DNA of 64,000 nucleotides from Candidatus Nitrosocosmicus oleophilus. Lineage in GTDB: Archaea; Thermoproteota; Nitrososphaeria; Nitrososphaerales; Nitrososphaeraceae. Made by a program: the position numbers and the translations under genes. This document shows, piece after piece, positions 36,911-58,651 of this stretch. The stretch spans positions 3,064,587 through 3,128,586 of the forward strand of contig NZ_CP012850.1 of assembly GCF_000802205.1 (NCBI RefSeq), read 5' to 3'. Numbering within the stretch: position 1 is the first letter of the stretch; each line of letters opens with the position of its first letter. Under the pieces are notes generated by a model that was given only the letters and a program-made list of their open reading frames with translations, had not been told where the DNA came from and made no database searches.

Positions 36911-37220
36911 TATGGTACATGTATCTTAACACATACATTTAACCTTTTCTTGAAATATCCATTTATCTTCTAAATAGCCAAACGAAATACAATTGTTGTA
37001 ATTACTATATAACAAATCGAAATTTGTCTTTAACAAATGAACTGGATTTATATATTTAGACAACTTTATATTTAATGATATAGATTTTAAATTATTAATT
37101 ACAGTATAATCTTATATTTTAACCAAGCTATAGCTATCTAAATTTTTTGTTTCAAGTATAATTTGAATTCTTCAATGATTCTTTAACATATATAAATAAG
37201 TAAGAGTATTATAAAACTGC
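36911..37220. other. divergent intergenic region with promoters
   Basis: 310 bp, very AT-rich. A TATA-like ATATATAAA at 37188-37196 serves the rightward GT2 gene. TTTATATATTTAG near 37047 has no gene close to it on the plus strand. No ORF supported. Confidence 0.45.
37188..37196 (+). promoter_or_regulatory. TATA box of the GT2/wecB unit
   Basis: ATATATAAA about 25 nt before the TTG start at 37221, typical spacing for a leaderless archaeal transcript. Confidence 0.5.
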
Positions 37221-38054: not shown

Positions 38055-38065
38055 GAGTAATCACC

Positions 38066-39187: not shown

Positions 39188-39232
39188 GGTTGACTTTACG
39201 AATTTAGATAAGGAAAAGTCATAGTTTTCCTG

Positions 39233-40387: not shown

Positions 40388-40573
40388 TTATCAATTCCAT
40401 ATATGCGCTCATATTTCTTTTTATTGCAAATTGTGAACTTTTAGTCGATTTTGCCCTTACTCAAGCTACTTATATAAAGGCCATAAATCGAACATTGGGA
40501 TTAGGTATGTTTAAGGTTTCCAATAGGAATAGAAACGTAATATTTTCGAAAATATATAGTCAGCCTATTATTG

Positions 40574-43500
40574 TTATGGTATTGGCTTTGTTTTACTTGT
40601 TTTATAATAATATATTGTTGCAGTAGCGGCTAAAATCAACAAAACAATAATGCTTATAGTTAACCCGGTATAAAACCAAGCCTGGGGTTCATATTCTAAA
40701 ACAATATCAAAACTACCAGTTTTATTAATCAAGAATCCATTAACTATTGAGAAAATAGGAACATTATCTATTTCCTTTTGAGACTGCGGATCATTACCAA
40801 CAATGCTAGCTTTCCACAATGGATCATAGGTTTCTGAAAATGACAAGACAAATGGTTTTGTTGCATTGTCTATTTTTATGATATGTTTTGTAGGATTAAT
40901 TTTGGAATAATTGCTCAGATATGCTGGTATGCTTTGATCACTAAAAGGTAGACTAGAGGTAGATGAGGAATAAGCATCATTTGTATCTGCATTTTCATTA
41001 CTGTTAATTGTATAAATCAGTGCAATATCTAACTTAGTTTTTGGATCAGGCATGGTTAACTTTATTTGATGTGTTCCTTTTGGCAGGTAGACAGTAGAAC
41101 CAATTGAAAACGTATTGTCTGAAGTTAAGGATGAGTTTGAGGATGAATTGTGGTTGGATTCATTATTAGAAAGACTCTGATAATCTCTTTCCACACCATC
41201 TATTACCAACTTAACTGGTTCATCTTTCAAGTCTCCTGTACCATTATCATAAAACTGGAAATCAAAGGAATAACTACCACTTTTTATTATATCGATATCC
41301 TTCTGTAATGTGTACCCCATACTACTGTTGTCCATGATTGTATTCATAGTTTCTGTACCTGTATCAGCTGTGGCATTGATAGCAGTAGTGGTAGTATTGG
41401 TGGTAGATGAAGTCATATTAGATTGATTTGATTCGCTAAATAGTGCATAGGATTTTATCGAATCAATATTTTCATCGTTTACCTTTATGTTATAACCATA
41501 GGAAGCGTTATTAACAACAGGAATAGATCTTGTTTGGACCAAGGAAGTTGAAGACGATGCATTACCATCTGTGTTATTCTGGATTAGACTTTCACGATGC
41601 ATATCAGCATAATATTCATCAGTATATCCAAGATTATTCAAATGAATACGTGGAATTATCTCTGTCACCTCAGTGTCATCTAAATAGAAGGTACTTTTTG
41701 AATTTGCATTAGGTAAGAACAGAAAAGCAACCTGGATAAATTCTGTATTACGTGGAGGTACAATGTCAATAGCGTATTCCTTTTCAAAGGAACCATTAAT
41801 GGGTTCAGAGACAGGATTTTCACTTATCAGATTATAATTCAAATCGTAAAAGTGCACTTCTGGGTGAAAATCGTTCATGTCAAATGCTTTAACTTTGGAC
41901 TTGAATTTTAGATTAGTGTCATCACCGATTGGTATATAATCTGTCTGTAAAATATTCCACGTATTCATACTATCGGGTGTAGATTGGTTTACATTAACTT
42001 TTAAACTGCTATTTCCTGCAATAGGATAATTTTCTTCCAAATTCTCTGAGTATAGTTCATCGCCAAATAATTCAAATGGATTGGTAGCATTCTCATAATC
42101 TTCAGAATAAACAGTTTTTTGACTTGTAGGTATTAGGTCAATAGATCTGATAGGATTAGTAGTTTGGGTATCATTACCGCTATTCTCAGGAGAAAATGGT
42201 TTGTACTTGTTTTCAAAATTTAATCTAAGTGAATCAACATTATCAGGCGTATTTAGTGTGCCATTAAACATGACAGTACCAGCTGTTGTATTATTGATTT
42301 TGTTTGGAGTCATAGTCATGGTATTATTTGAAATTGTAGTATCAAATAGCGGAACTAGTATAGAATTAGTGCTGTTACCAAAACTGTCAAAGTCGGCTTG
42401 ATCCATCAAATATATAATATTCATCTCACTAGTTTTATCCATAACAGCAGACATTGATTGTTCAAATTGGCTATGAGGAACTACTGCAAATGTGTTTATA
42501 GCATTAAAACCATTTACATTTTCGATGGTTAATTTGTGCGTACCTTTAGTCAAATTGCCTGACCATATTTTTTTCCATACAAACTTGTCGTTGTTGTCTG
42601 TGCCTTGAGTATTGATTTCATTTATTAAATCATCGTCTAGGAAAATCTTGATGTTTCCTCCTCTGAAATTCTCAAGATAGCGTATGAACAAGTCGTATTG
42701 ATCATCCTTGTCAATTTTAATAGGTATGTCAAGTTTGACACCTGAAGCTTGTGTTATAACTATACCCTTCCCATAATCTAAATCCCAATTATCTATTCCT
42801 ACTGGTTGTAAATAAGGATGGAATTCCCCATGTAATGAATCAATGGCATTGACTCTGGACCAAAATAGGGAGTGGTCATTATGAAAAGTATATTCAAAAG
42901 GTGAAACAAAGTAGTCATTAGGCATAAATGGAAATACAAGTCCTAAGAAAGATGGTTCCATGATTATGTTGTTAAAATAATTTAGAGAACTGATATTTTG
43001 TGATGGATTTTGATCCAAAAATAATACCGAAGAATTTGTGGAACTAAAGGACTTGATCTTATTAAGAAGGGATAATTTGTCTAAGCCTTGAACTACTCCA
43101 ATGTTGTTGTTGGTATTCATTATATCAATGGATGATGACTGATTTTTTGGTAATTTGAAGACGTCAAAAAATCCAATGTTCTTATCATGCTGTAAATCAC
43201 TCAAAGTATAAACCTTGTTCGAGAAAGACAAATCATCTTCTGATATTGTATCATTGTGATATATCAAATACGATGTACCGAAAGGATAAATGTAATTGCT
43301 GATACCTTCTTTTGTTTGATTATTTTGAATCAATTGGGTAAAATAATTATAGTAATTCTTTTGCACCGGATAAAAGATCTGATTGCTTGGAAGATCAGAT
43401 TCTAACTGATAAATGCCAGGTTGATTTGGACCGATTATTCCATGATTAAGACTCCAGTATGGCGGGGTCGCAGAGTAAGGCATAAAAAAGACCTTTTGAG

Positions 43501-44899
43501 TATCAAGGGTAGATAAGTAGTTGTTTAAATTATCAAAATCCTCTGGCAATTTTATGGAATTATAAATTTCATCCATCGTATAGTTATAAACCGGATATGC
43601 AAAAATAGCAATACTACCAATAATAATAACAATATAGATGGATGAGACAATGATGTTTTTAGATCGATTTGAAAACAGTTTGAAAATGAAAACTGAAAAT
43701 AAAGTTATGAAAAAAGAATAACTAAATGCTATCAAAAATGACCACTTATCAGGGTCTCTAAAAACCCAGGCAATCTTTCCAAGTATAGGTGTGGAAAATA
43801 AAATACTAAAATAATCAATCCGAATGTTTGTTCCCATAGCCAGCACAAATCCAATTACAAAAAAAACAAACAAAATAAGAGAATATTTTATTTTTTTAAC
43901 CCAAAGAATGAAAGATAGTATAGCTAATACTGGAAACAGGTAGATAGTAAATAACCACAAAGAATGCAGGATAGATGTAGGAGGCGATGGTTCATAATTG
44001 ACTCCAAAATTTATCCAGTCAGCAGTGAGAGTCAGAGTGTTTAATAACGCACTATCTCTGCTTAATAGGTCTGTTATCTCTAAATTCAAAACATATGTGG
44101 GTGCAATTAATTCAGAGGAGGTGACCGAACTCAGAACATACGGTAGAATCCAGTACAGATTTACTACAACAAAAAGAGAAAATAAAGATACCAGTGTTAT
44201 TGTGGAATGTAATACTGGTTTGAATTTCCTTTTGCTAAGATAGTAAACAAAAAATGAAAGAAAAGTAATTGTCAAAATTATTCCATAAAATATCACCATG
44301 TGTGGAGTAGATGAAGCGATGATAGAAGTTAAGGCAGCTATTATTATGTATTTAAACTTGAACCGCTGAAATGAAAAAACAAGAGATACAAAAAAGATAG
44401 GCAAAATAGAATATCCAATCCATAAGTAGTAATGATCTATTCGATTAAATGACCAGACATTATACGCATAAAAAATGCTACCAATGATCAGCGCTATACT
44501 TAACTTTAATTCAGTAATTCCTTGAATCTTATTTTTTAGCAAATAAAAAAATGAAAAATAAAATGAAAATGAACATAACGAAAAACCCAGTATAATCATT
44601 ATTTTGGTAGATGCTTCAAAACTAACAGAAAATAAAGAGAGAAGAGCCCAGATTCCTATCATTGGAAATCTTGCCAAATTCTCAAAACCAGAATAGCTAC
44701 CTTTATCTATCCATAGCCAAAGCCTCTCAAAGGAATAATGAGAGGTATCAAAAGAAGGAAAATCTCCACCGATTAATACGCCAGATTGAACAAATAATCT
44801 AATAGAGATAATAAAAATTGGAACTAGTAATACAAGAAATAGATATTTTTGAACATAATGGTTAGAAGTACCTTGGCTGAGTGAATCTTTCTTGTACAT
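40574..44899 (-). CDS. large GT-C-like membrane glycosyltransferase, copy A of a mosaic pair
   Basis: 1441 residues. The N-terminal half (about residues 18-445) holds about 12 membrane segments. The first outer loop has the motif GGDFPSF, the likely catalytic Asp region of GT-C/YfhO-type enzymes. A soluble ectodomain (about 460-1400) follows, rich in Asn/Ser/Thr sequons. It includes a carbohydrate-binding-like beta domain (DQYDLFIRYLENFRGGN, KGTHKLTIENVNGFNAIN). One final membrane helix (about 1412-1432) and a short basic tail end the protein. It probably transfers sugar from a polyprenyl donor to surface glycans. Copy B at 54266-58651 is the same gene with long identical tracts and sharply bounded different patches. 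Confidence 0.8.
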   Translation of the reverse strand: MYKKDSLSQGTSNHYVQKYLFLVLLVPIFIISIRLFVQSGVLIGGDFPSFDTSHYSFERLWLWIDKGSYSGFENLARFPMIGIWALLSLFSVSFEASTKIMIILGFSLCSFSFYFSFFYLLKNKIQGITELKLSIALIIGSIFYAYNVWSFNRIDHYYLWIGYSILPIFFVSLVFSFQRFKFKYIIIAALTSIIASSTPHMVIFYGIILTITFLSFFVYYLSKRKFKPVLHSTITLVSLFSLFVVVNLYWILPYVLSSVTSSELIAPTYVLNLEITDLLSRDSALLNTLTLTADWINFGVNYEPSPPTSILHSLWLFTIYLFPVLAILSFILWVKKIKYSLILFVFFVIGFVLAMGTNIRIDYFSILFSTPILGKIAWVFRDPDKWSFLIAFSYSFFITLFSVFIFKLFSNRSKNIIVSSIYIVIIIGSIAIFAYPVYNYTMDEIYNSIKLPEDFDNLNNYLSTLDTQKVFFMPYSATPPYWSLNHGIIGPNQPGIYQLESDLPSNQIFYPVQKNYYNYFTQLIQNNQTKEGISNYIYPFGTSYLIYHNDTISEDDLSFSNKVYTLSDLQHDKNIGFFDVFKLPKNQSSSIDIMNTNNNIGVVQGLDKLSLLNKIKSFSSTNSSVLFLDQNPSQNISSLNYFNNIIMEPSFLGLVFPFMPNDYFVSPFEYTFHNDHSLFWSRVNAIDSLHGEFHPYLQPVGIDNWDLDYGKGIVITQASGVKLDIPIKIDKDDQYDLFIRYLENFRGGNIKIFLDDDLINEINTQGTDNNDKFVWKKIWSGNLTKGTHKLTIENVNGFNAINTFAVVPHSQFEQSMSAVMDKTSEMNIIYLMDQADFDSFGNSTNSILVPLFDTTISNNTMTMTPNKINNTTAGTVMFNGTLNTPDNVDSLRLNFENKYKPFSPENSGNDTQTTNPIRSIDLIPTSQKTVYSEDYENATNPFELFGDELYSENLEENYPIAGNSSLKVNVNQSTPDSMNTWNILQTDYIPIGDDTNLKFKSKVKAFDMNDFHPEVHFYDLNYNLISENPVSEPINGSFEKEYAIDIVPPRNTEFIQVAFLFLPNANSKSTFYLDDTEVTEIIPRIHLNNLGYTDEYYADMHRESLIQNNTDGNASSSTSLVQTRSIPVVNNASYGYNIKVNDENIDSIKSYALFSESNQSNMTSSTTNTTTTAINATADTGTETMNTIMDNSSMGYTLQKDIDIIKSGSYSFDFQFYDNGTGDLKDEPVKLVIDGVERDYQSLSNNESNHNSSSNSSLTSDNTFSIGSTVYLPKGTHQIKLTMPDPKTKLDIALIYTINSNENADTNDAYSSSTSSLPFSDQSIPAYLSNYSKINPTKHIIKIDNATKPFVLSFSETYDPLWKASIVGNDPQSQKEIDNVPIFSIVNGFLINKTGSFDIVLEYEPQAWFYTGLTISIIVLLILAATATIYYYKTSKTKPIP

Positions 44900-45210
44900 A
44901 AAAATTTAAAGTTAATGAAAATGTCATTTGGTCCAATAAAAATCATCTGCTCGTCATATTTAATGTAAGCTCGATGGTAAAACTGCCATTTTAAGTATAG
45001 CGACATCACGTTCAAAATACTTCTTTAGCAAATAGGGAACTCAATCAAAAAAGATAAACAAAAGTGCATGTGACAAAAAGACTGTTGAATCGGTATGGAT
45101 CCCCTAAAATAAGGTTCTCAATTTACTTTGTTGTGAGATAGCATTATAACCCATTTTCTCCAAAACTATAATAGATTTATTAAACAATAATTCAGAATCT
45201 AAGTTAAGTA
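44900..45210. other. divergent intergenic region
   Basis: 311 bp, AT-rich, with no supported ORF. Its left part (to about 44950) resembles the region upstream of copy B, including a shared TTTGGTCCAATAAAAATCAT stretch. The promoters of both flanking genes should lie here. Confidence 0.5.
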
Positions 45211-46377
45211 ATGAATATTCTGTATATCACCCAGTGGTTTTCTTCAGAGGGTGGAGGAGGAGAGGTCGTTTTTATGAATGTTGCTAGAGGTATGGCTAAA
45301 AAAGGTCACAAGGTCGATGTAATTTCCCATATACTTAGTAATACTGTTGATGAACAAATCCATGGTTTAAAAATTCACAGAATTAATCCTAAACTTAGAA
45401 ATCAATTACCTTCGATATCTGACAACTTTCTATTTATGATACGCAGTTTGATTGAAGGAATAAGGATCATTCGAAAAAACAAAATCGATTTAATTCATTC
45501 GAATAACTTTATTTCCGTAATTGTGGGTAAAACGTTATCTAAAATATTTAATATTCCGCTAGTTACTACAATTCATTACGTATATTATCAGACTCCCGAA
45601 TTGTGGGATAAATGGGCTAAACAGGAAGGAGTATCAATATTCTCAAAAATTTTAGGCCCATTTTTAGAGAAAATGACGATAAAAATAAACGCCGATGCAG
45701 TTCATACGGTCAGTAAAGCTACATATGATGACGTTAAAAAAATAAATAAGAAGTCCAAGGTGGTAATAATAACCAACGGACTTTATCCAGAAAAATATTT
45801 GGGATATTTTTCTGAAGAATTTAAGAATTATATAGTCTTCATAGGAAGGCTTGTTTTCTACAAGAACGTGAATTTCTTAATCAATGCCTTTACTGATGTT
45901 TTGGAAAAAATCCCGGATGCGAAGCTAATAATAATAGGGGACGGCCCCCTAAAAAATGAACTATACGAACTAGTAACACATAATCATTTAGAAAAAAATA
46001 TATTCTTTATAGGATTTAATGATGGAGATAAAAAATTTGAACTGTTGGCCAATTCAACAGCATTAGTTCAACCCAGCCTGGCAGAAGGATCCTCCATGGT
46101 TGCTATCGAGGCATTTGCATTGGGAAAACCTGTAATCATGTCTAATTTGAAATGTTCAAATGAATTAATTGTCGATGGAATAAATGGGTTTACTATACCA
46201 CCAGATGATCAAAAACAGTGGACTGAAAAAATAATTATGCTGTTAACGGATAAAATGCAATCTAAAGAATTAGGGAAAAACGCTCAAAAACGGATGATTG
46301 AAAAATTCAATTTGAATGTACTTTTGAACGAATTTGAATTATTGTACAAAGATATTCTAAACGATAGAAAAACATAA
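45211..46377 (+). CDS. GT4 family glycosyltransferase
   Basis: 388 residues, GT-B fold. The N-terminal LYITQWFSSEGGGGEVVFMN contains the Gly-rich acceptor loop. The C-terminal donor domain has FIGRLVFYKNVNFLINAF, LIIIGDGPLKNEL, and the E-x7-E signature in PSLAEGSSMVAIEAFALGKP. No membrane segment. It probably adds a sugar to a lipid-linked glycan on the cytoplasmic side, with the acceptor and donor unknown. It is divergent from copy A. Confidence 0.88.
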   Translation: MNILYITQWFSSEGGGGEVVFMNVARGMAKKGHKVDVISHILSNTVDEQIHGLKIHRINPKLRNQLPSISDNFLFMIRSLIEGIRIIRKNKIDLIHSNNFISVIVGKTLSKIFNIPLVTTIHYVYYQTPELWDKWAKQEGVSIFSKILGPFLEKMTIKINADAVHTVSKATYDDVKKINKKSKVVIITNGLYPEKYLGYFSEEFKNYIVFIGRLVFYKNVNFLINAFTDVLEKIPDAKLIIIGDGPLKNELYELVTHNHLEKNIFFIGFNDGDKKFELLANSTALVQPSLAEGSSMVAIEAFALGKPVIMSNLKCSNELIVDGINGFTIPPDDQKQWTEKIIMLLTDKMQSKELGKNAQKRMIEKFNLNVLLNEFELLYKDILNDRKT

Positions 46378-46842
46378 CAAAATAAATATGTCAAAATATT
46401 TAATAGCATCAAGATTCTATCAACTTTCCTCTGGTTTAAGTTGATAATGAATTTATAACAAGTTATGATATTCACCTGCCTTAGAGACTTCATATTTTGA
46501 AATTGATTTGCTAATTCTTTTAATCTAAAATATCTTTCGAAAATCCCCAGTAATAACCTACATAGTGTTTTTATGTCTTTCTGCAAAATATTTGCAGTAT
46601 ATAAATCGGCCTTCACACACAAATATCTCTGTATAACAAATTCTTTCGTGCAGATTTAATCTTAATGCCTTGAAGTAACAGAATATATTTTATTTAAATA
46701 CTTAAGCAATGAATAACAGATAAAAGGAGTGTATAATTGCACCATATACAAGATCCATCCTGTAAACCAAGAGGATGATGGTAGAAATATTTGTTAAATT
46801 TGATACTTAATATCCTTATTCTTATTTAACCACCATGGATCC
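46378..46842. other. intergenic region
   Basis: 465 bp. A leftward frame of about 110 codons overlaps the end of the GT4 gene, but its composition and lack of any motif do not support a gene. No RNA or repeat seen. Confidence 0.4.
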
Positions 46843-48633
46843 TCATTTTTTCGTAATTTTATAAATTACTCCATATTTCCCCTGATTCTCCTTTGAATGA
46901 TCAAAGTCAATGATCTGATCGGGATTTATAGATAGCACATACATAGCACCATCAGGACCCACTTGGATATCCGTAATATGTCCAAAGCCTCTACCAAACA
47001 CCGGAGAAGAGGCATCACTATAGTTTGGCATCAGATCAATGTACTTACCCGAATAGTTATCGAAAAGTTTAATTTCATCATACTTACTGGTGGCTTCTTT
47101 ATCTTCTTTAGACGACCATCCGGCATTAATAGCAGGTTGGATTTTTGATATATTATTAGGGATTGTCAGGTCGCACTGAAATTTAGTCATATCCATCTTT
47201 CCCGTTTTTGCATCGGGGCATTGTATTAACGGAACCCATGATTTTGACGTTTCATTAAAACCCTGGACTACAATGTGTGAATCTGTAGAATATTTATTTT
47301 GTGACATGGACGTCTCAATCGTATATTTATTCCCTGGAATAACCCCATATTCCGAACCATAAATCCATGACCATAAATTTTCAACGTTAATTGGTGTAGA
47401 TATAGTCAAAGATCTTTCAAGATTATTGCTAGTTACATTGACAGATTCATCAACTGTGCATCTATAGTAATTAAAACAGGTTGTAAATGGATCCTGATAA
47501 ATTACTGGATAGCTTTTTCCCATTATTCCGACGTGACTTATCATATTTGAATCACTTTCAATAATCGACCTATTTTCATTCAGTTTAAAACGGTAAATAT
47601 TACCATCATTAAAATCTCCAACAAACATATCACCAAAATAATTTTCTCCCAAGTTGTGCGAATTCATAAACTTGATAGCAGTTATTCCTATTGTATCCAA
47701 GAAAGTCATTTTAGGATAGTCATATCCATTGGATTGATCAAATGTAACTAATTCAGTTAGGTTTGTAAATAGATCCCCGGCTTCTTCACCTGAAGGCTCC
47801 CACAAACCCTGAACTTTCTTCCATCCACTGTTGAACCCAGGTTGAACTAAATTGATCTCATCCCCGTATCCAGGTCCATTTTCTGTATCCCAAAGATTGC
47901 CGGTTAAGGGATCGAAATCTAAACCAAAACTGTTTCGAATTCCATATGCAAAATAATTATGTAGCGTGGAATTTTCAAAGATGTTTTTAATCGGCTTGTC
48001 ATCTAAACTGATCCTTATAATTCCACCTGATCCATTGACACCTGTACCGTTATCAAAATTTTGAGTTAAGGACCTGGATGCTAAAAGATCACCTATAGAT
48101 ACATAAAGATTATCATCAGGACCTATAACCATTTTACCGCCAACATGATATGGAGGTTCAGAATCATATGGCAAATCAAATAGTAGCTTTGGGTTGACTA
48201 ATTTGCCATTTATAAAATCATATTTGAAAATTCTATTCCCTAAAACATCGTCTTCAGAATTGGATTCATTGGTGCTTTCCTCACCATTTAACTGCGTGAA
48301 ATATAGATAGACGCTTGTTATCCCCGAAGAATTGGTAAGCGCAACTGAACCTAGCAACCCTCTTTCCTGCGAGTTGTCTACATCAAGTTGTAAAACAGGG
48401 TCATCCAACATTTGTCCATTTATGATTCTGTTTACTATTCCATCGTTTTTTTCTAAAACTAATATGTCATCATCTTTCAAGAAGGACATTGAAACAGGAA
48501 ATTCCAACCCATGGTATAATGTTTCAATTTTCAAATTTTTGTCGTATAGAATAGGCTCTGAAGATACATATTGTAGACAAGAATTAAAAAATACAAGAAA
48601 GAGAATTAATGGTAGAAAAAGGATTAATTTCAT
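46843..48633 (-). CDS. secreted sorbosone/glucose dehydrogenase-like beta-propeller with inserted module (paralog 1)
   Basis: 596 residues. Signal peptide MKLILFLPLILFLVFF; a Cys in NSCLQ could be lipidated but the lipobox is weak. The propeller has GSDH-family motifs: YHVGGKMVIGPDDNLYVSIG, YAYGI-type YFAYGIRNSFGLDFDPLTG, and LWDTENGPGYGDEINLVQPG. A roughly 130-residue module interrupts it near residues 385-515 (NKYSTDSHIVVQGFNE, IQCPDAKTG, KIQPAINAGWS), and the last blade resumes at FGRGFGHITDIQVGPDGAMY. The propeller family oxidises sugars with PQQ. Whether this one binds PQQ is not shown; a surface-sugar-binding role is also possible. Confidence 0.83.
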   Translation of the reverse strand: MKLILFLPLILFLVFFNSCLQYVSSEPILYDKNLKIETLYHGLEFPVSMSFLKDDDILVLEKNDGIVNRIINGQMLDDPVLQLDVDNSQERGLLGSVALTNSSGITSVYLYFTQLNGEESTNESNSEDDVLGNRIFKYDFINGKLVNPKLLFDLPYDSEPPYHVGGKMVIGPDDNLYVSIGDLLASRSLTQNFDNGTGVNGSGGIIRISLDDKPIKNIFENSTLHNYFAYGIRNSFGLDFDPLTGNLWDTENGPGYGDEINLVQPGFNSGWKKVQGLWEPSGEEAGDLFTNLTELVTFDQSNGYDYPKMTFLDTIGITAIKFMNSHNLGENYFGDMFVGDFNDGNIYRFKLNENRSIIESDSNMISHVGIMGKSYPVIYQDPFTTCFNYYRCTVDESVNVTSNNLERSLTISTPINVENLWSWIYGSEYGVIPGNKYTIETSMSQNKYSTDSHIVVQGFNETSKSWVPLIQCPDAKTGKMDMTKFQCDLTIPNNISKIQPAINAGWSSKEDKEATSKYDEIKLFDNYSGKYIDLMPNYSDASSPVFGRGFGHITDIQVGPDGAMYVLSINPDQIIDFDHSKENQGKYGVIYKITKK

Positions 48634-49114
48634 TTATACCCAATGTAATTTGTAGGTACACCTCTATCTATTTATTCGGATCCTAATCCTTGAATTTCGT
48701 TTCAGCTACGTAGATGTATAGTATTATATTTGCGTCGGGCATTTTATTCATTAAGAATTTAGGTGCATCTTATCAAATTGGTCTAGTTTTAGATTTCTCA
48801 TTTAAGGTCTTTGGCAAATCAGTCTCTGTTAGTAGACAGCAAGATCAATACTATCCAATTATTCAACATTCATTGACAAAGAGTACATGTAGAAAATTAA
48901 ATCAAATCTGGAGATTACATCAGGATTATTCATCTCGCACGAGTAAATTGCTATAGCATTAGACGCAAGCTATTGACTTTTCAAACCTGTATTCCACCCA
49001 GCGTAGAACGATAAATGAGTCAGATTACCTAATAATATAAATAATTTAATTTACTTGATTATGTCCGAGGTAATAGAATAAATCTTAATAATCAAACTTA
49101 AACAATACATTATT
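48634..49114. other. intergenic region with a possible decayed ORF
   Basis: 481 bp. A plus-strand frame of 80 codons (48714-48956) has a protein-like start (IIFASGILFIKNLGASYQ) but ends abruptly. It may be a transposase remnant; I could not place it in a family. Confidence 0.35.
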
Positions 49115-49915
49115 GTGAATGATAATCGATCGCCATATACTCCAACGAAAGTAGTTTGGGGTAACAAGTCATCAATATTAACAGAGCTACTCAAGGAAGC
49201 CCGGGAGTCCGTTAGGAAAAAGGGATTAATCCATGTTTTTAAGATGGGAATTGTAACCAGTTATGAATATTTTCAATTGTTCTTTTATAAAAAATTTCGT
49301 AATGATGAAACGTTCTATTTTAATGGAAAAAAATACCACTATCTTTTTCATGGAAGAGTAGCCGGAGCGGGTCCTAGTTGGAAAAATGAACGGTGTGTCA
49401 ACATTCCAATCATATGGGAAACTATTGAGGAATATAGAAAAAATAACAAGAAAGTATTGGAATTAGGAAATGTAATTTCATATGCAACAGATATCGATCA
49501 TGATGTGATTGACAAATATGAAATAATGGATGGGATAATAAATGAAGATATAATTGATTTTAATCCTAAATTCAAGTACGATTTAATTGTAAGCGTACTA
49601 TGCCTTCAAAGCGTAGGATGGGATGAAATACCTAAGGATCCACCAAAAATTCTTAAAGCGCTTGAAAACATGAATAACATTCTAGCTCCCGGAGGGAAAA
49701 TGGTTATTTCTGTAGGCTGGGGGTGGAATCAATACCTTGAAAGCTTGATTTTAGAGGGAAAATTCAAATTTGATGAACAATGGTTTTTGAAACATGACAA
49801 GGGATACAAATGGGAGGAAGTACAATCTATTAACGAAATTAAAGATCTTAAATATGATGAGAAAGCCTACACAGCACGAGGGATAATCATTGGAATAATT
49901 AACAAAAAATCATGA
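49115..49915 (+). CDS. SAM-dependent methyltransferase-like protein
   Basis: 266 residues, GTG start. The Rossmann-like core has KVLELGNVISYAT at about 117-130 (motif I, degenerate from the usual E/DxGxGxG), FNPKFKYDLIVSVLCLQSVGWD (motif II-III region) and NILAPGGKMVISVGWGWN (post-motif). The N-terminal 90 residues are basic and may bind the membrane or substrate. The unusual motif I makes catalysis less certain. It may methylate a glycan in this cluster. Confidence 0.65.
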   Translation: MNDNRSPYTPTKVVWGNKSSILTELLKEARESVRKKGLIHVFKMGIVTSYEYFQLFFYKKFRNDETFYFNGKKYHYLFHGRVAGAGPSWKNERCVNIPIIWETIEEYRKNNKKVLELGNVISYATDIDHDVIDKYEIMDGIINEDIIDFNPKFKYDLIVSVLCLQSVGWDEIPKDPPKILKALENMNNILAPGGKMVISVGWGWNQYLESLILEGKFKFDEQWFLKHDKGYKWEEVQSINEIKDLKYDEKAYTARGIIIGIINKKS

Positions 49916-49938
49916 AATTTTATATTTGGATTTTTTCT

Positions 49939-51012
49939 TTATCCATCCATAATAATCTTCTCAAATTCTGATACTGTATTATCCCAATTAAAATTCTTGG
50001 CATAATCCAAAGAAGATCGACTTAATGTTAATAACTTGATTGGATCCTTTAACAATGAAACGGCCATACTCGCCAGTTCATCAGGAGTATTTTTTTCTAC
50101 CAGGAGACCATTTATACCGTTTTGAACTGAATCCACCAACCCCGGCACCTTATATGCAATAACTGGGGTGCCCATCGCATTTGACTCGATCACCACCAAT
50201 CCCCATCCTTCCCTAGTTGCTGGCATCAGTACCAAATGTGAACGTGCAATGAGTTCATATTTTTGCTTATCATCAATATGACCAAAAAAAGTTATATTTT
50301 TAACATCGATTTGTTTTAGTTTCTTTATCATATATCCATTCCCTATGACATACATCTGACTTTCAGGAAAAGATTCCAGGATTTTTTTAAATGCCAAGAT
50401 TGCATGATCTGGAAGTTTATGTTTTTTTAACCTACCAATATAGGTAACTGTAATTTGATCTTCTTTTGGTAAAGGCTCAGGCAGTTGTTTGATACTTAAC
50501 CCTACTTTAATTACACGGACTCTATTATAACCTAGTTCTTCTAATGAAATACGTGTAGAATTAGACACTGTTATTGTTAAGATATCACGATAATACGATA
50601 ACCATTTTTTTTCCAAAAAATATCTACCGATGATGCCGATTGGAAATGGGAGTTCGGTGGTAAACTGTTCAGGAGATATCTGATGAATTAGACCAATTAT
50701 TGGCAATTCTTTAACATATTTTGGAGTCAGGAAAGGCTTGACATTTATCTCATCTATTATCAGGTCAAATTTGTTTTTATGGATTTTATAATATTTTTTT
50801 GCTTCCCTATAAACAGAGAATTTTCCCCCCTTTCTGACTACACTTACACCATCAATAACATCCGATTCGGAGCAATCTTGAAACGATGATGTAAAGAGTG
50901 TTATGTCGTGACCTTTTTTTACCAACCTACTAGAAATCTCATGAGTTAGTACCTCTGCACCGCCAGCTTCAGGATTTCTAATATCTCTCCAGTTAAACCA
51001 TAGGATGCGCAT
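49939..51012 (-). CDS. GT4 family glycosyltransferase
   Basis: 357 residues, GT-B fold. It begins MRILWFNWRDIRNPEAGGAE, the acceptor-side Gly loop, and has VTYIGRLKKHKLPDHAILAF, YVIGNGYMIKKL and the E-x7-E motif in PATREGWGLVVIESNAMGTP. Cytoplasmic. Its sequence differs clearly from the GT4 at 45.2 kb, so it should have another specificity. Convergent with the methyltransferase-like gene, with a 23-bp gap. Confidence 0.88.
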   Translation of the reverse strand: MRILWFNWRDIRNPEAGGAEVLTHEISSRLVKKGHDITLFTSSFQDCSESDVIDGVSVVRKGGKFSVYREAKKYYKIHKNKFDLIIDEINVKPFLTPKYVKELPIIGLIHQISPEQFTTELPFPIGIIGRYFLEKKWLSYYRDILTITVSNSTRISLEELGYNRVRVIKVGLSIKQLPEPLPKEDQITVTYIGRLKKHKLPDHAILAFKKILESFPESQMYVIGNGYMIKKLKQIDVKNITFFGHIDDKQKYELIARSHLVLMPATREGWGLVVIESNAMGTPVIAYKVPGLVDSVQNGINGLLVEKNTPDELASMAVSLLKDPIKLLTLSRSSLDYAKNFNWDNTVSEFEKIIMDG

Positions 51013-51129
51013 TCTCTGTTATGTGCTTATTATATTGCAAATATTTACCTTTGAATAATTAATGCCCATTTGTTGATTGATTTGATTATAGTTGATTTAT
51101 TAAATGATCACTATCTAAGGTTATGAGAT

Positions 51130-51730
51130 TTATTTTCTTTTTTTCAAGGAATAAAACCAGACCGTTGTTGTCTAATTTTTTATTCTACATGGAAAGTAAT
51201 CGTCGAAACTTTCTGTTCTGTTTCGATATACTATATCTTTCTTTCGATCATGCTTTTCTCCCATGGAGTGGATATGGTGTTTTAGTTCTACGAATTTACA
51301 GGCCATTGGAAACCAGAATCCGCCATCTGTAGAAATATGAAATATTTAATAAATTCGGATAATATCTGATAGGAAGCTCCCAGCAAGAAGTATGTTTCTC
51401 TCTTGTGAAATATGTTGTGCGAGAATTTGACCTATTTCTGGTTTAATAGCTATCCATACTCATACAAACTCTAAATCAGCCTTTAGTATGGTCTAATCTA
51501 CAATACATTAGGATATCTCATCCTTTCTGGTTTATGATATTTTTTGAGGACAGTACTTTAGAATCCACTTCCACATTGCTACATGACATCTCTTGTTTAA
51601 TTGAATATATGACTAGGCATTGACAAAGTTACTTGATCATAACCGAGAAAATATAAATACAAACCGTAGTCGATGTAATCTAAAGGTGTTCTGTCTCTTT
51701 TGTTTAACAAATCAAAATTAGAGCATCTTC
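51130..51730 (-). pseudogene. decayed IS6-like DDE transposase
   Basis: The minus strand, read from about 51720 to 51130, gives recognisable transposase pieces in order. These are RTPLDYIDYGLYLYFLG and RCHVAMWKWILKYCPQK, then a first-Asp strand CIVD-stop-TILKADLEFV and VWIAIKPEIGQILAQHIS. They are followed by QERNILLAGSFLSDII, HISTDGGFWFPMACKF with the second Asp, ELKHHIHSMGEKHDR, and NRTESFDDYFPCRIKN with the Glu. Most of the gene stays in one frame, broken by at least six stops, with a frame change near the N-terminus. It is a long-dead element of the same family as the remnant at 11.8-12.3 kb. Family placement is from pattern recall. Confidence 0.72.
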
Positions 51731-52226
51731 AAGCTAAATCATTTTCTTAAATTAATAGGGCTAACTAAAGGAATAATCAAATTTTTTAAGAATTGGTCAA
51801 CTAGTCATCATTCTACTAAGGAGACGATAGTAGACACACTGAGCTGGTTTTGTAATGATTGGTATTATAGCAATTTTTTTAGAACAAAAACAACCTTTAC
51901 GTGCGATTTTTAGAATTAACAGGTTTGACACCGTTTTACTTTCGATAAATAACGCATGGTTTTGACTAATCCTATCAATCAAGGCGTATTTATTACATTT
52001 ACCACCCTAATAGAGATCTTTCTAATGATTCTTTGATAAATGAACTGGAGTAATATGTTCTGCTAAACTAATCAAGGATCAATCTTAAGAAGTGTCCTAT
52101 TGGCAGGGATTTGTCGATTTTTTTTTAGATGAATAATTTTTGGAGGTAATTTGCTAAGATGGAAAAACTTCAGTATTTTTGAAAGACGGCATGAAAAAAT
52201 ATATAATAGAGAGTGTATTCCAATAA
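51731..52226. other. gene-free stretch upstream of the second propeller gene
   Basis: About 500 bp, AT-rich, no feature recognised. The region 52190-52215 (AAAAAATATATAATAG) is a good TATA candidate for the propeller gene. Confidence 0.45.
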
Positions 52227-52241
52227 GCGGAGGGAATACCA
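52227..52241 (+). promoter_or_regulatory. Shine-Dalgarno-like GGAGGG before an ATA codon
   Basis: GGAGGG at 52229-52234 lies 7 nt before the ATA at 52242, the first codon of an in-frame signal-peptide extension of the propeller gene. No ATG, GTG or TTG is available there. Confidence 0.45.
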
Positions 52242-53984
52242 ATAAGAATAACGTTATATTTAATCGTTTTAATAAGTTCTTTTTTACTCACACTTAATTG
52301 CATAGTTTTTGCCTATGCACAAGATATGACTAACTTTACTCATCCTCAGAATGTAAGTTTGGATCTGGATGCAAACAATCTCTTTAGCATTGATGACTTT
52401 TCAATGATTACTTCAACTACGGAAACGAAAAATAATACATGGTCACCCATTTTTGGCGATACCATAAGAGTCAAACCTGACAGAGAATACATGGTAATAT
52501 CCAATTTGGAACTGAATAAATATGCTATGCAGTCTCATATAAAAATATCAGGATTCAATGAAACTAGTGAAAAATGGTTCCAAATTATTCAATGTCCAGA
52601 GGGCCTAGACGGCCCTTTAGAATTAAGTAGATTTGTTTGCCCATTTACAGTACCGGAAAATGTGACCAAAATACAGCCCATTTTTCAGTCAGGTTGGTCC
52701 AACGAATCAGGACAAAAAGCTGAAACCATATTTGGAAATTTCTTCGTTATCGAACGACCCCCTGATGGAATTCCCATAGTATTTGATAATAAACTAAAGG
52801 TTCAAGAAATTTTTCACAATAACATTACATCAACTGCTATGACTTTCATAAATCAAAACGACATATTACTACCTGATTCCTATAATGGAACAGTATACAG
52901 GTACGTGAATGATACACTCATGGGGCCGATGGTTGATTTTAATGTAGCACAGAATGGATTATTGGGATTAGACAGTCTAGAAAAGAATGGAACTAGATAT
53001 GTATACATATTCGTCACTGAATCTGGAGGATCAGAAGATGGCGACGATATTAGTAAATCGGTAAAACCGAAATGTAACTGTATTTACAGATTTGAGTTAA
53101 AAGACAATAAATTAATAGATCCAAAGCTCATATTCAGTGTTCCAGCTTATTTAGGTGGAAACGCTCATGCTGGCGGTGTAATAAGAATAGATAAAAATCA
53201 AGATATCTTTGTTATGGTTGGGTCACTTAATTCTGAAGAAGCAGATGGTGAACCGAATCTAATTAACAACGAGATTAACGGTTCTGATCCCGATGGTAGA
53301 TCAGGGATACTAATAATGGATTATAATGGAAAGCCAATCAAAGGAATCCTTGGTGATCACTTTCCACTTAATCTATATTATGCTTACGGAATTAGGAATA
53401 GTTTTGGAATGGGTTTTGATCCAGTAACTGGATATCTATGGGATACTGAAAATGGACCTGACACAGGAGATGAAATTAATTTAGTTCGACCAGGATTCAA
53501 TAGCGGGTACAATAAAATTGATGGTGTTTGGACTTATGGGAATACATCTGACACTGAAAAGGGATATGTAGAAACCTTAAATCCGTCCAATCTGGTAGAT
53601 TTTAATGGAAGCGGAAAATATAGAACACCAGAACTGACATGGCAACAACCAATAGGCATAGTTGCATTGGGCTTTTTGAATTCAAGTTATCTCGGTAATG
53701 AATACCTAAATACAATGTTTGTTTCCGACATTAATAATGGCTATGTATATAATTTCAAATTGGATAAAAACAGAACTGGGTTGGAATTGAATGGCCCATT
53801 AAAAGACAAGATAGTGAATTCCACGAAAGGAATAAATGATTATTCAGAAATAAGTAGCAATATTTTTGGTATGAATATGGGTCTAATTTCAGATATTAAG
53901 ATGGGTCCAGACGGATATATCTATTTCCTGAAAATGAACGATAATTATTTTGGCAAATTATATAGATTAGTACCTAATACATAA
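52242..53984 (+). CDS. secreted sorbosone/glucose dehydrogenase-like beta-propeller with N-terminal module (paralog 2)
   Basis: From the first ATG (52326) the protein has 552 residues but no signal peptide. In frame upstream lies RITLYLIVLISSFLLTLNCI then VFAYAQD, an obvious signal peptide, reachable from an ATA codon at 52242 with a GGAGGG 7 nt before it. I therefore extend the gene to 52242, as a rare ATA start or a mutated ATG. The accessory module (NKYAMQSHIKISGFNETSEK, IQCPEGLDG, KIQPIFQSGWS) is N-terminal, before the propeller. Propeller motifs include GGNAHAGGVIRIDKNQDIFV, YYAYGIRNSFGMGFDPVTG and LWDTENGPDTGDEINLVRPG. It is a paralog of the 46.8 kb gene with a different domain order. 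Confidence 0.8.
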   Translation: MRITLYLIVLISSFLLTLNCIVFAYAQDMTNFTHPQNVSLDLDANNLFSIDDFSMITSTTETKNNTWSPIFGDTIRVKPDREYMVISNLELNKYAMQSHIKISGFNETSEKWFQIIQCPEGLDGPLELSRFVCPFTVPENVTKIQPIFQSGWSNESGQKAETIFGNFFVIERPPDGIPIVFDNKLKVQEIFHNNITSTAMTFINQNDILLPDSYNGTVYRYVNDTLMGPMVDFNVAQNGLLGLDSLEKNGTRYVYIFVTESGGSEDGDDISKSVKPKCNCIYRFELKDNKLIDPKLIFSVPAYLGGNAHAGGVIRIDKNQDIFVMVGSLNSEEADGEPNLINNEINGSDPDGRSGILIMDYNGKPIKGILGDHFPLNLYYAYGIRNSFGMGFDPVTGYLWDTENGPDTGDEINLVRPGFNSGYNKIDGVWTYGNTSDTEKGYVETLNPSNLVDFNGSGKYRTPELTWQQPIGIVALGFLNSSYLGNEYLNTMFVSDINNGYVYNFKLDKNRTGLELNGPLKDKIVNSTKGINDYSEISSNIFGMNMGLISDIKMGPDGYIYFLKMNDNYFGKLYRLVPNT

Positions 53985-54265
53985 TCCCAATCATAGAACA
54001 ATGTGCAAAATCAAACTTAATTACAAATTGAAATGCAATAGGTGAAAAAGATGCTTTAAGCAAATTCACTACTTCGAGTCGTAAAGCCATCCAGAAATAT
54101 CATTTCACTTCTAAATAGGATTCCAATTTCATGACCTAAACTATTTTGGACATCCATTAGTCCTAAGTTAACAAATCTATATCTTCATAATTATCATTAT
54201 ATTTCCAACCTTTTTCTTATACATTTCTTGTTATTGGCATATTATTGTCGTTGTTTTGATTTTTA

Positions 54266-57200
54266 CTAGGATTTATTTTTTCTGTGATAGTATAATATTG
54301 TTGTAGTAGCAGCTAAAATCAACAAAACAATAATGCTTATAGTTAACCCGGTATAAAACCAAGCCTGGGGTTCATATTCTAAAACAATATCAAAACTACC
54401 AGTTTTATTAATCAAGAATCCATTAACTATTGAGAAAATAGGAACATTATCTACGGCTGTGTGAGATTGTTGATTACTATCACCACTAGTATCATTAGTA
54501 TCATTAGTATCATTAGTATCATTAGTATCAACAATGCTAGCTTTCCACAATGGATCATAGGTTTCTGAAAATGACAAGACAAATGGTTTTGTTGCATTGT
54601 CTATTTTTATGATATGTTTTGTAGGATTAATTTTGGAATAATTGCTCAGATATGCTGGTATGCTTTGATCACTAAAAGGTAGACTAGAGGTAGATGAGGA
54701 ATAAGCATCATTTGTATCTGCATTTTCATTACTGTTAATTGTATAAATCAGTGCAATATCTAACTTAGTTTTTGGATCAGGCATGGTTAACTTTATTTGA
54801 TGTGTTCCTTTTGGCAGGTAGACAGTAGAACCAATTGAAAACGTATTGTCTGAAGTTAAGGATGAGTTTGAGGATGAATTGTGGTTGGATTCATTATTAG
54901 AAAGACTCTGATAATCTCTTTCCACACCATCTATTACCAACTTAACTGGTTCATCTTTCAAGTCTCCTGTACCATTATCATAAAACTGGAAATCAAAGGA
55001 ATAACTACCACTTTTTATTATATCGATATCCTTCTGTAATGTGTACCCCATACTACTGTTGTCCATGATTGTATTCATAGTTTCTGTACCTGTATCAGCT
55101 GTGGCATTGATAGCAGTAGTGGTAGTATTGGTGGTAGATGAAGTCATATTAGATTGATTTGATTCGCTAAATAGTGCATAGGATTTTATCGAATCAATAT
55201 TTTCATCGTTTACCTTTATGTTATAACCATAGGAAGCGTTATTAACAACAGGAATAGATCTTGTTTGGACCAAGGAAGTTGAAGACGATGCATTACCATC
55301 TGTGTTATTCTGGATTAGACTTTCACGATGCATATCAGCATAATATTCATCAGTATATCCAAGATTATTCAAATGAATACGTGGAATTATCTCTGTCACC
55401 TCAGTGTCATCTAAATAGAAGGTACTTTTTGAATTTGCATTAGGTAAGAACAGAAAAGCAACCTGGATAAATTCTGTATTACGTGGAGGTACAATGTCAA
55501 TAGCGTATTCCTTTTCAAAGGAACCATTAATAGTCTCAAAATTAACTGCCTCACCCAACAAATCATAATTGGAATCATAGAAGTATATCACAGGATGAAA
55601 GTCTTGTGTATCAAATGCTTTAACTTTGGACTTGAATTTTAGATTAGTGTCATCACCGATTGGTATATAATCTGTAATGATATAACTCCAATCTGTTGAT
55701 TCATTTGTAGCATGCATCTTCATGTCGACTCTTAAACTGCTATTTCCCGAAATAGAGTTATTTCTATCTAAGATTATATTTGAAATAGGATTATCAGGAT
55801 TTGACAATGCCGAAGACAACTCTTCGCCAAATAATTCAAATGGATTGGTAGCATTCTCATAATCTTCAGAATAAACAGTTTTTTGACTTGTAGGTATTAG
55901 GTCAATAGATCTGATAGGATTAGTAGTTTGGGTATCATTACCGCTATTCTCAGGAGAAAATGGTTTGTACTTGTTTTCAAAATTTAATCTAAGTGAATCA
56001 ACATTATCAGGCGTATTTAGTGTGCCATTAAACATGACAGTACCAGCTGTTGTATTATTGATTTTGTTTGGAGTCATAGTCATGGTATTATTTGAAATTG
56101 TAGTATCAAATAGCGGAACTAGTATAGAATTAGTGCTGTTACCAAAACTGTCAAAGTCGGCTTGATCCATCAAATATATAATATTCATCTCACTAGTTTT
56201 ATCCATAACAGCAGACATTGATTGTTCAAATTGGCTATGAGGAACTACTGCAAATGTGTTTATAGCATTAAAACCATTTACATTTTCGATGGTTAATTTG
56301 TGCGTACCTTTAGTCAAATTGCCTGACCATATTTTTTTCCATACAAACTTGTCGTTGTTGTCTGTGCCTTGAGTATTGATTTCATTTATTAAATCATCGT
56401 CTAGGAAAATCTTGATGTTTCCTCCTCTGAAATTCTCAAGATAGCGTATGAACAAGTCGTATTGATCATCCTTGTCAATTTTAATAGGTATGTCAAGTTT
56501 GACACCTGAAGCTTGTGTTATAACTATACCCTTCCCATAATCTAAATCCCAATTATCTATTCCTACTGGTTGTAAATAAGGATGGAATTCCCCATGTAAT
56601 GAATCAATGGCATTGACTCTGGACCAAAAGGATAAAGGATCGTTATGAAAAGTATATTCAAAAGGTGAAACAAAGTAGTCATTAGGCATAAATGGAAATA
56701 CAAGTCCTAAGAAAGATGGTTCCATGATTATGTTGTTAAAATAATTTAGAGAACTGATATTTTGTGATGGATTTTGATCCAAAAATAATACCGAAGAATT
56801 TGTGGAACTAAAGGACTTGATCTTATTAAGAAGGGATAATTTGTCTAAGCCTTGAACTACTCCAATGTTGTTGTTGGTATTCATTATATCAATGGATGAT
56901 GACTGATTTTTTGGTAATTTGAAGACGTCAAAAAATCCAATGTTCTTATCATGCTGTAAATCACTCAAAGTATAAACCTTGTTCGAGAAAGACAAATCAT
57001 CTTCTGATATTGTATCATTGTGATATATCAAATACGATGTACCGAAAGGATAAATGTAATTGCTGATACCTTCTTTTGTTTGATTATTTTGAATCAATTG
57101 GGTAAAATAATTATAGTAATTCTGTTGTACAGGATAAAAGATCTGATTGCTTGGAAGATCAGATTCTAGGTTATAAATTCCAGTAACACTGTGATTAAGA

Positions 57201-58651
57201 CTCCAGTATGGCGGGTTATCAGAGTAAGGCATAAAAAAGACCTTTTGAGTATCAAGGGTAGATAAGTAGTTGTTTAAATTATCAAAATCCTCTGGCAATT
57301 TTATGGAATTATACCTTTCATCCATCGTATAGTTATAAACCGGATATGCAAAAATAGCAATACTACCAATAATAATAACAATATAGATGGATGAGACAAT
57401 GATGTTTTTAGATCGATTTGAAAACAGTTTGAAAATGAAAACTGAAAATAAAGTTATGAAAAAAGAATAACTAAATGCTATCAAAAATGACCACTTATCT
57501 GGGTCTCTAAACACCCAGGCAATCTTTCCAAGTATAGGCGTAGTAAATAAAATACTAAAATAATCAATCCGAATGTTTGTTCCCATAGCCAGCACAAATC
57601 CAATTACAAAAAAAACAAACAAAATAAGAGAATATTTTATTTTTTTAACCCAAAGAATGAAAGATAGTATAGCTAATACTGGAAACAGGTAGATAGTAAA
57701 TAACCACAAAGAATGCAGGATAGATGTAGGAGGCGATGGTTCATAATTGACTCCAAAATTTATCCAGTCAGCAGTGAGTGTTAAGGTGTTAAAAAAATCG
57801 TTATCCCTGCTAAGTACATCAGTTATCTCTAAATTCAAAACATATGTGGGTGCAATTAATTCAGAGGAGGAGGTGACCGAACTCAGAACATACGGTAGAA
57901 TCCAGTACAGATTTACTACAACAAAAAGAGAAAATAAAGATACCAGTGTAGCTGTACTGTATAAAAGGGGCTTGAATTTCCTTTTGCTAAGATAGTAAAC
58001 AAAAAATGAAAGAAAAGTAATTGTCAAAATTATTCCATAAAATATCACCATGTGTGGAGTAGATGAAGCGATGATAGAAGTTAAGGCAGCTATTATTATG
58101 TATTTAAACTTGAACCGCTGAAATGAAAAAACAAGAGATACAAAAAAGATAGGCAAAATAGAATATCCAATCCATAAGTAGTAATGATCTATTCGATTAA
58201 ATGACCAGACATTATACGCATAAAAAATGCTACCAATGATCAGCGCTATACTTAACTTTAATTCAGTAATTCCTTGAATCTTATTTTTTAGCAAATAAAA
58301 AAATGAAAAATAAAATGAAAATGAACATAACGAAAAACCCAGTATAATCATTATTTTGGTAGATGCTTCAAAACTAACAGAAAATAAAGAGAGAAGAGCC
58401 CAGATTCCTATCATTGGAAATCTTGCCAAATTCTCAAAACCAGAATAGCTACCTTTATCTATCCATAGCCAAAGCCTCTCAAAGGAATGATCAGAAACTT
58501 CGAAAGAAGGAAAATCACCATTTATTATTACACCTGGTTGAACAAATAATCTAAAAGAGATAATAACAATTGGAACTAATAATACAAGAAATAAATATTT
58601 TTGAACATAATGTTTGGAGGTACCTTGGCTTAGCGAATCCTTCTTGTACAT
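54266..58651 (-). CDS. large GT-C-like membrane glycosyltransferase, copy B of a mosaic pair
   Basis: 1461 residues from the Met at 58651 (MYKKDSLSQGTSK), the start shared with copy A. A Met 16 codons upstream (58699) is in frame here, but the matching site in copy A is out of frame, so I do not use it. Same architecture as copy A: about 12 N-terminal membrane segments, NGDFPSF in the first outer loop, a large sequon-rich ectodomain with a carbohydrate-binding-like domain, and one C-terminal helix. It differs from copy A in sharp patches: the first 60 residues, an outer loop near 250-275, YSDNPPYWSLNHSVTGIYN, an ectodomain stretch near 920-1010, and a repeat-containing insert near 1395 (NDT repeats). 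Confidence 0.8.
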   Translation of the reverse strand: MYKKDSLSQGTSKHYVQKYLFLVLLVPIVIISFRLFVQPGVIINGDFPSFEVSDHSFERLWLWIDKGSYSGFENLARFPMIGIWALLSLFSVSFEASTKIMIILGFSLCSFSFYFSFFYLLKNKIQGITELKLSIALIIGSIFYAYNVWSFNRIDHYYLWIGYSILPIFFVSLVFSFQRFKFKYIIIAALTSIIASSTPHMVIFYGIILTITFLSFFVYYLSKRKFKPLLYSTATLVSLFSLFVVVNLYWILPYVLSSVTSSSELIAPTYVLNLEITDVLSRDNDFFNTLTLTADWINFGVNYEPSPPTSILHSLWLFTIYLFPVLAILSFILWVKKIKYSLILFVFFVIGFVLAMGTNIRIDYFSILFTTPILGKIAWVFRDPDKWSFLIAFSYSFFITLFSVFIFKLFSNRSKNIIVSSIYIVIIIGSIAIFAYPVYNYTMDERYNSIKLPEDFDNLNNYLSTLDTQKVFFMPYSDNPPYWSLNHSVTGIYNLESDLPSNQIFYPVQQNYYNYFTQLIQNNQTKEGISNYIYPFGTSYLIYHNDTISEDDLSFSNKVYTLSDLQHDKNIGFFDVFKLPKNQSSSIDIMNTNNNIGVVQGLDKLSLLNKIKSFSSTNSSVLFLDQNPSQNISSLNYFNNIIMEPSFLGLVFPFMPNDYFVSPFEYTFHNDPLSFWSRVNAIDSLHGEFHPYLQPVGIDNWDLDYGKGIVITQASGVKLDIPIKIDKDDQYDLFIRYLENFRGGNIKIFLDDDLINEINTQGTDNNDKFVWKKIWSGNLTKGTHKLTIENVNGFNAINTFAVVPHSQFEQSMSAVMDKTSEMNIIYLMDQADFDSFGNSTNSILVPLFDTTISNNTMTMTPNKINNTTAGTVMFNGTLNTPDNVDSLRLNFENKYKPFSPENSGNDTQTTNPIRSIDLIPTSQKTVYSEDYENATNPFELFGEELSSALSNPDNPISNIILDRNNSISGNSSLRVDMKMHATNESTDWSYIITDYIPIGDDTNLKFKSKVKAFDTQDFHPVIYFYDSNYDLLGEAVNFETINGSFEKEYAIDIVPPRNTEFIQVAFLFLPNANSKSTFYLDDTEVTEIIPRIHLNNLGYTDEYYADMHRESLIQNNTDGNASSSTSLVQTRSIPVVNNASYGYNIKVNDENIDSIKSYALFSESNQSNMTSSTTNTTTTAINATADTGTETMNTIMDNSSMGYTLQKDIDIIKSGSYSFDFQFYDNGTGDLKDEPVKLVIDGVERDYQSLSNNESNHNSSSNSSLTSDNTFSIGSTVYLPKGTHQIKLTMPDPKTKLDIALIYTINSNENADTNDAYSSSTSSLPFSDQSIPAYLSNYSKINPTKHIIKIDNATKPFVLSFSETYDPLWKASIVDTNDTNDTNDTNDTSGDSNQQSHTAVDNVPIFSIVNGFLINKTGSFDIVLEYEPQAWFYTGLTISIIVLLILAATTTILYYHRKNKS
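54488..54530. repeat. 9-bp tandem repeats in copy B
   Basis: AGTATCATT occurs four times plus a partial copy, encoding a run of Asn-Asp-Thr. Copy A has an unrelated sequence at this point (GNDPQSQKE). In-frame, so length changes are tolerated. Confidence 0.9.

Follow-up and report, generated by a model that had tools for sequence, protein, structure and literature searches.

Patchy gene conversion between two giant glycosyltransferase-like genes of Candidatus Nitrosocosmicus oleophilus, with one segment that has stayed copy-specific since before a species split

In the window analysed here, a 64-kilobase (kb) stretch of Candidatus Nitrosocosmicus oleophilus (positions 3,064,587-3,128,586 of a single 3,430,706-base contig, 99.75% complete; coordinates below are positions within the window), two copies, A and B, of a gene for a giant membrane glycosyltransferase-like protein are located 13.7 kb apart. 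They are probably an old duplicate pair subject to ongoing, patchy ectopic gene conversion, from which one short segment, designated p8, has been spared, most likely by selection. This is well-marked concerted evolution that has spared one island; the kind of process is known, and the setting is new. The two genes are as follows.

40574-44899, minus strand: copy A, giant membrane glycosyltransferase-like gene, 1441 amino acids (aa); open reading frame (ORF), model helices and hydropathy, weak AftD profile match.
54266-58651, minus strand: copy B, 1461 aa counted from the start that matches copy A (58651); ORF, for which the ORF finder gives 58699 as the start.

The codon alignment of A and B comprises 4296 columns with 199 substitutions (95.4% identity), plus indels, and all 199 of the substitutions lie inside 11 clusters that sum to about 0.7-0.8 kb. 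The identical runs measure 1003, 806, 517, 481, 234, 184, 142, 125, 94, and 65 nucleotides (nt), while shuffled placement of the 199 differences (2000 shuffles) gave a longest run of 123 nt on average and 322 nt at most. Outside the patches, none of 749 synonymous sites differs, which sets an upper bound on divergence of about 0.004; inside them, the proportion of synonymous differences (pS) is 0.60 and the synonymous divergence (dS) about 1.2. This pattern is beyond the reach of point mutation after duplication and requires recombination. A sequence-only reading of the same DNA had described a mosaic pair with sharp patches, identical tracts of about 1 and 0.8 kb, and a block of about 60 identical bases between two patches, which the alignment bears out almost to the base; the comparison of silent sites that it called for rules out uniform divergence. 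The patches that it named were all found, and five small ones (at 44198, 43751, 43565, 42866, and 40771) had escaped it. It had also taken the flanks to be diverged, which does not wholly apply to the 5′ flank, as about 60 nt upstream of the start of A are 85% alike. The tracts and patches delimited by the alignment are listed below in the coordinates of copy A; WA stands for the closest relative, Candidatus Nitrosocosmicus sp. WA-bin7.

40798-41800, minus strand: identical tract, 1003 nt; the sister copies (WA-bin7) are 22-26% different here.
42060-42865, minus strand: identical tract, 806 nt, containing a confidently modelled CBM6/35-like module.
42879-43359, minus strand: identical tract, 481 nt.
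44220-44736, minus strand: identical tract, 517 nt.
41880-41944, minus strand: identical block, 65 nt, separating p8 from p9.
44737-44888, minus strand: patch p1, aa 4-55, comprising the N-tail, transmembrane (TM) helix 1, and the first outer loop around the invariant D46.
44198-44219, minus strand: patch p2, aa 227-234, at the cytoplasmic end of TM7 (topology); A, B, and WA are all mutually different.
44030-44072, minus strand: patch p3, aa 276-290, outer loop (topology).
43751-43795, minus strand: patch p4, aa 369-383, outer loop, changes mostly silent.
43565-43566, minus strand: patch p5, aa 445, I/R.
43360-43470, minus strand: patch p6, aa 477-514, ectodomain, including a 15-nt indel.
42866-42878, minus strand: patch p7, aa 674-678, 9/13 nt different, between the 481- and 806-nt identical tracts.
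41945-42059, minus strand: patch p8, aa 947-985, trans-species retained in the four-copy comparison; the B type has a 33-nt insert.
41801-41879, minus strand: patch p9, aa 1007-1033, partly trans-species retained in the four-copy comparison.
40771-40798, minus strand: patch p10, aa 1368-1377; a 48-nt GATACTAAT-type insert is present in B.
40577-40628, minus strand: patch p11, aa 1424-1441, end of the last TM helix and tail.

WA-bin7 is a metagenome-assembled genome and the sole genome found by one contig scan; the trans-species tests rest on this one hybrid-assembled sister genome. Its contig C226 carries the downstream neighbours of A and, after them, the 3′ part of a copy, and contig C153 carries the upstream GT4 gene of A, a copy, and the downstream GSDH gene of B. 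The copies were named by position from these flanks, and four 3′ sequences were compared, namely A, B, a (C226), and b (C153). The conserved flanks indicate that the duplication is older than the species split, and a recent simple duplication does not suffice, as the sequence-only reading had argued.

In the identical tracts, 208 informative sites (19+7+83+75+24) group the copies by genome (AB|ab), with none for the grouping by locus (Aa|Bb) and none for the third one. A is thus closer to B than to its positional orthologue (bootstrap 100), as in concerted evolution. The dS between A and WA-bin7 in these tracts is 0.42-0.65, where that between A and B is below about 0.004; the dN/dS between species is about 0.13 (against the A-side copy of WA-bin7), and the frames of A and B are intact. 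In p8 the grouping is reversed: 15 informative sites support the orthologous Aa|Bb, against 4 for AB|ab and 2 for the third grouping, and the 33-nt insertion is common to B and b, the WA-bin7 copy at the position of B. The maximum-likelihood tree of p8 likewise joins B and b (bootstrap 100), while the tracts on both sides give A+B and a+b (bootstrap 100). Because p8 groups by locus, both loci and both p8 types must predate the split, and homogenisation has since acted on everything else in the region compared; tracts that group by genome around a segment that does not point to ectopic conversion, ongoing since before the split, that spared p8. The other patches of this region behave differently: p9 is mixed (7:5:2, orthologous first) and hence ambiguous, and in p10 and p11 the two copies of each genome group together.

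The WA-bin7 copies form a mosaic of their own. They are near identical over about A 40594-41130 and diverged at 41340-41430 and 41540-41680, within the tract where A equals B. In addition, the WA-bin7 gene that follows the GT4 neighbour of A is B-like (91%) in the 132 nt before its start and A-like farther out, beside GT4, and its p1 matches B at 19 and A at 3 of the 25 differing sites. A B-like promoter and 5′ end next to the GT4 gene of A imply that interlocus exchange continues in that genome too, across the promoter. As a separate observation, p2, which packs 12 differences into 22 nt with long identical tracts adjoining, differs by about 50% between any two of A, B, and WA-bin7, and its flanks are 85-92% like WA.

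With regard to the protein, copy A is predicted from low-confidence model helices and hydropathy to have about 11 N-terminal TM helices, an ectodomain of about 980 aa, and one C-terminal TM helix. Neither A nor B matched any family in Pfam and NCBIfam. However weak, the sequence evidence suggests AftD-like GT-C enzymes: a profile built from nine sequences (A, B, and seven relatives within the order) aligns collinearly with mycobacterial AftD structures over 309 positions (E 0.008), and three of the nine family members match Pfam AftD (PF11847) at E <= 0.1 (best 1.2e-5). Two residues, D46 of the first outer loop and R381, do not vary among the nine relatives. The structure models are of low confidence (pLDDT 48 and 45), too poor for a structure-based placement of the glycosyltransferase core, which was abandoned. 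A CBM6/35-like beta-sandwich is confidently modelled at aa ~715-815; its Foldseek matches to CBM6/35/36 (prob 1.0) are the sole convincing ones, and it corresponds to the carbohydrate-binding ectodomain modules expected of an AftD-like enzyme. This module is encoded within an identical tract and outside the patches. On the other hand, p8 and p9 fall in another, poorly modelled beta-rich module, which is absent from a 1090-aa relative in genome G043.

The explanation outlined above runs as follows. A and B would be old duplicates of a giant AftD-like GT-C surface glycosyltransferase, and ectopic gene conversion between both loci has overwritten the copies repeatedly since before the WA-bin7 split, as the site patterns indicate, probably in short, discontinuous tracts. 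RadA-dependent recombination without surveillance by MutS, MutL, or NucS is a plausible route. Through speciation p8, and probably part of p9, has escaped homogenisation, most likely by selection that maintains two forms, different in function, of a region that is beta-sandwich-like and may bind sugars. Most other patches would require no selection, being leftovers between random conversion tracts or gene-end effects.

Several observations weigh against this explanation. In simulations with randomly placed conversion tracts, a mean tract length of about 100 nt with 1.7-2.2-fold coverage yields the A/B mosaic in 16-22% of trials, judged by patch number, uncovered length, and longest identical run, whereas tracts averaging at least 200 nt do so in 3% of trials or fewer. 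Between presumed orthologues, p8 is only 63-69% identical, compared with 81-89% just upstream, so that, judged from the alignment, p8 is both spared and labile. As seen above in WA-bin7, p1 does not hold its position across species. The WA-bin7 B copy lacks its 5′ half, and trans-species retention is therefore testable in the 3′ 40% of the gene only. Furthermore, the C153 gene of that genome has frameshifts and a probable misjoin, with about 500 nt repeated at L018:12833. In this gene, A-side sequence at the 5′ end is fused to B-side sequence at the 3′ end, either by misassembly, which is probable since the 5′ part overlaps the C226 copy at 97-98% identity, or else as a real tandem hybrid. The L018 gene as a real A/B hybrid was set aside, owing to the probable misjoin in a hybrid assembly. 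Contig C309 of genome G059 (L021), binned in another genus, is 88% identical to and collinear with window positions 36629-41718; this favours misbinning of a Nitrosocosmicus contig over an orthologue from another genus, and it was used for side comparison only.

As neutral tracts can yield the mosaic, mosaicism alone is no proof of selection, and only the trans-species p8 argues for it. A purely neutral process is accordingly the foremost competitor, though an unlikely one: short-tract heteroduplex resolution without mismatch-repair surveillance would leave all patches, p8 included, as chance remnants or uncrossable heterologous blocks of no function. The simulations are in keeping with it. 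So is the genome, in which MutS_V, MutL (DNA_mis_repair, PF01119), and NucS_C (PF01939) had no match at E <= 0.001, while control genomes matched. So too is the distribution of the patches, which are not enriched outside the membrane: 170 of 228 patch residues lie there versus 178 expected (p = 0.70), because most of the protein (1129/1441 residues, 78%) is extracytoplasmic. For the same reason, the earlier argument from patches in outer loops is uninformative, and the patches are not confined to outer parts, with p2 at a cytoplasmic helix end and p1 and p11 including membrane and cytoplasmic parts. What speaks against pure neutrality is that p8 held its copy identity through the species split while none of the 208 surrounding informative sites did. 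If the conversion rate were constant, the probability that p8 survived by chance would be negligible; but the rate may be bursty, or segments that are strongly heterologous may block conversion mechanically, and the argument is not decisive. Of the proposal that gene conversion spares selected loops, the conversion and the sparing of one ectodomain patch stand, but the mosaic itself is also obtainable from random conversions of about 100 nt.

It is improbable that, following a recent full duplication or conversion, homologous recombination with other strains or species brought patches into one of the copies. Such import might account for the odd p1 allele of A (dS A-B 0.50, A-WA 0.54, B-WA 0.27), but some ten separate short imports would be needed after complete homogenisation, and the orthology of p8 and the flanks places both loci and both p8 types before the split. 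There is even less reason to suspect that assembly collapse or polishing made the tracts identical, the least credible of the alternatives. Repeats are prone to collapse, and a WA-bin7 contig has a probable misjoin; yet the window lies within one contig of 3.43 Mb, copies at a patch dS of about 1.2 would not merge solely between patches, and the independent WA-bin7 assembly has the same phenomenon with different boundaries.

Cassette exchange or programmed diversification, with silent donors or dedicated machinery replacing patches so as to vary the surface glycan, is very improbable. In its favour, p2, p3, and p7-p10 are mutually diverged among A, B, and WA-bin7, and the genus was reported to have no S-layer genes and to possess a glycocalyx-like coat and many glycosyltransferases (PMC11559005); the host is indeed an archaeon, as the sequence-only reading had proposed. 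Against it, no third member of the A/B family was found in the genome, either with the protein query or with a profile of distant relatives, nor did this 99.75% complete genome yield partial donor copies, pseudogenes, or donor cassettes. A reverse transcriptase (RVT_1) was not found either, and the A/B substitution spectrum is mostly A/G and C/T, balanced, without the A bias of diversity-generating retroelements, which were rejected on these two grounds. Silent-cassette antigenic variation was likewise dismissed, since the extra silent or partial donors it calls for were not found, and neither the cassette nor the retroelement mechanism is supported. The net effect of A/B conversion is homogenisation. 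The surface-glycan diversification system envisaged from the sequence was therefore not demonstrated, random conversions being sufficient for the mosaic.

The preferred explanation of conversion with a spared p8 has parallels in known systems. In methanogens, long-lasting gene conversion homogenises one part of mtrA-1/mtrA-2 while the other stays distinct (PMC4632066), and this pair is named among the concertedly evolving prokaryotic genes (PMC6053082). Both cases concern archaeal paralogues that are partly homogenised and partly distinct; however, the distinct part of mtrA is a whole fused transmembrane domain, whereas in A and B, 4.3-kb genes for a surface glycosyltransferase in an ammonia oxidiser, it consists of short islands surrounded by identical sequence. 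In human red/green opsin exon 5 (PMC3924837) and the Tigriopus GOT1 paralogues (PMC3728101), a divergence peak was attributed to selection that opposes conversion of functional sites. A small, highly diverged segment with homogenised flanks is common to these and A/B, but they are eukaryotic, and the function of the opsin island is known, while the A/B island is known from sequence alone. PMC4471258, citing Mao and Grogan 2012, describes short-patch discontinuous gene conversion in Sulfolobus acidocaldarius and presents hyperthermophilic archaea as lacking MutSL. Multiple discontinuous tracts in an archaeon of a group described as lacking MutSL are the likeness; the difference is that conversion was shown there by transformation, in a hyperthermophile with NucS, and is deduced here from sequence. 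The Sulfolobus control genome did have a NucS match, unlike the present one. A Sulfolobus-like mode would account for tracts of about 100 nt and for recombination between locally very different copies. The AftD arabinofuranosyltransferases (PF11847; PDB 6w98, 6wbx) are also giant GT-C membrane enzymes with a large ectodomain, although A and B themselves have no Pfam match. Finally, cassette antigenic variation of the pilE/pilS type likewise produces mosaic genes with conserved and variable blocks, but from silent donor loci, which A and B do not have.

The neighbouring genes include GT4 enzymes, two GSDH-type proteins, a GH127/GH76-like protein, and a UDP-GlcNAc 2-epimerase, and make up a glycan locus. 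Those used to anchor or flank the copies are given below.

39233-40387, minus strand: downstream neighbour of A, GH127/GH76-like, which anchors the A position in WA-bin7 C226.
45211-46377, plus strand: upstream neighbour of A, GT4.
52326-53984, plus strand: downstream neighbour of B, GSDH, which anchors the B position in WA-bin7 C153.

The GSDH-type proteins at 46843-48633 (minus strand) and 52326-53984 (plus strand) are 38% identical, and a weakly CBM4_9-like module of some 120 aa lies on the C-terminal side in one and at the N-terminus in the other, as though the domains had been permuted. Other Nitrososphaeraceae (L020, L023, L024; genomes G043, G066, G005) likewise have a giant GT-C gene in the vicinity of a GSDH-type gene and GT4, which suggests that the three constitute a conserved glycan module. 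Elsewhere in the window, the ORF at 35996-36910 contains five repeats at 168- or 171-nt spacing that are 68-86% alike, with no Pfam match, and a subtilase gene (29033-31618) contains 21-nt and 18-nt tandem arrays, several units of which are exactly identical.

Islands in paralogues that clearly remain distinct from one species to the next despite gene conversion seem to be rare outside eukaryotes. The protein in the A/B case is a glycosyltransferase of the envelope, and its host is a soil ammonia oxidiser in a genus reported to have no S-layer. The case singles out p8 as a candidate segment for the specificity of these giant enzymes, and it lets conversion tracts be read as they arose in nature, in an archaeon in which MutS, MutL, and NucS were not found. 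A bolder proposal, which we regard as rather doubtful, is that the cores are kept identical by frequent short-patch conversion while two long-lived p8 types, reshufflable between the loci, give two distinct, recombining surface glycans. If this were true, an archaeon without known mismatch-repair surveillance would make two related surface glycans that recombine over evolutionary time.

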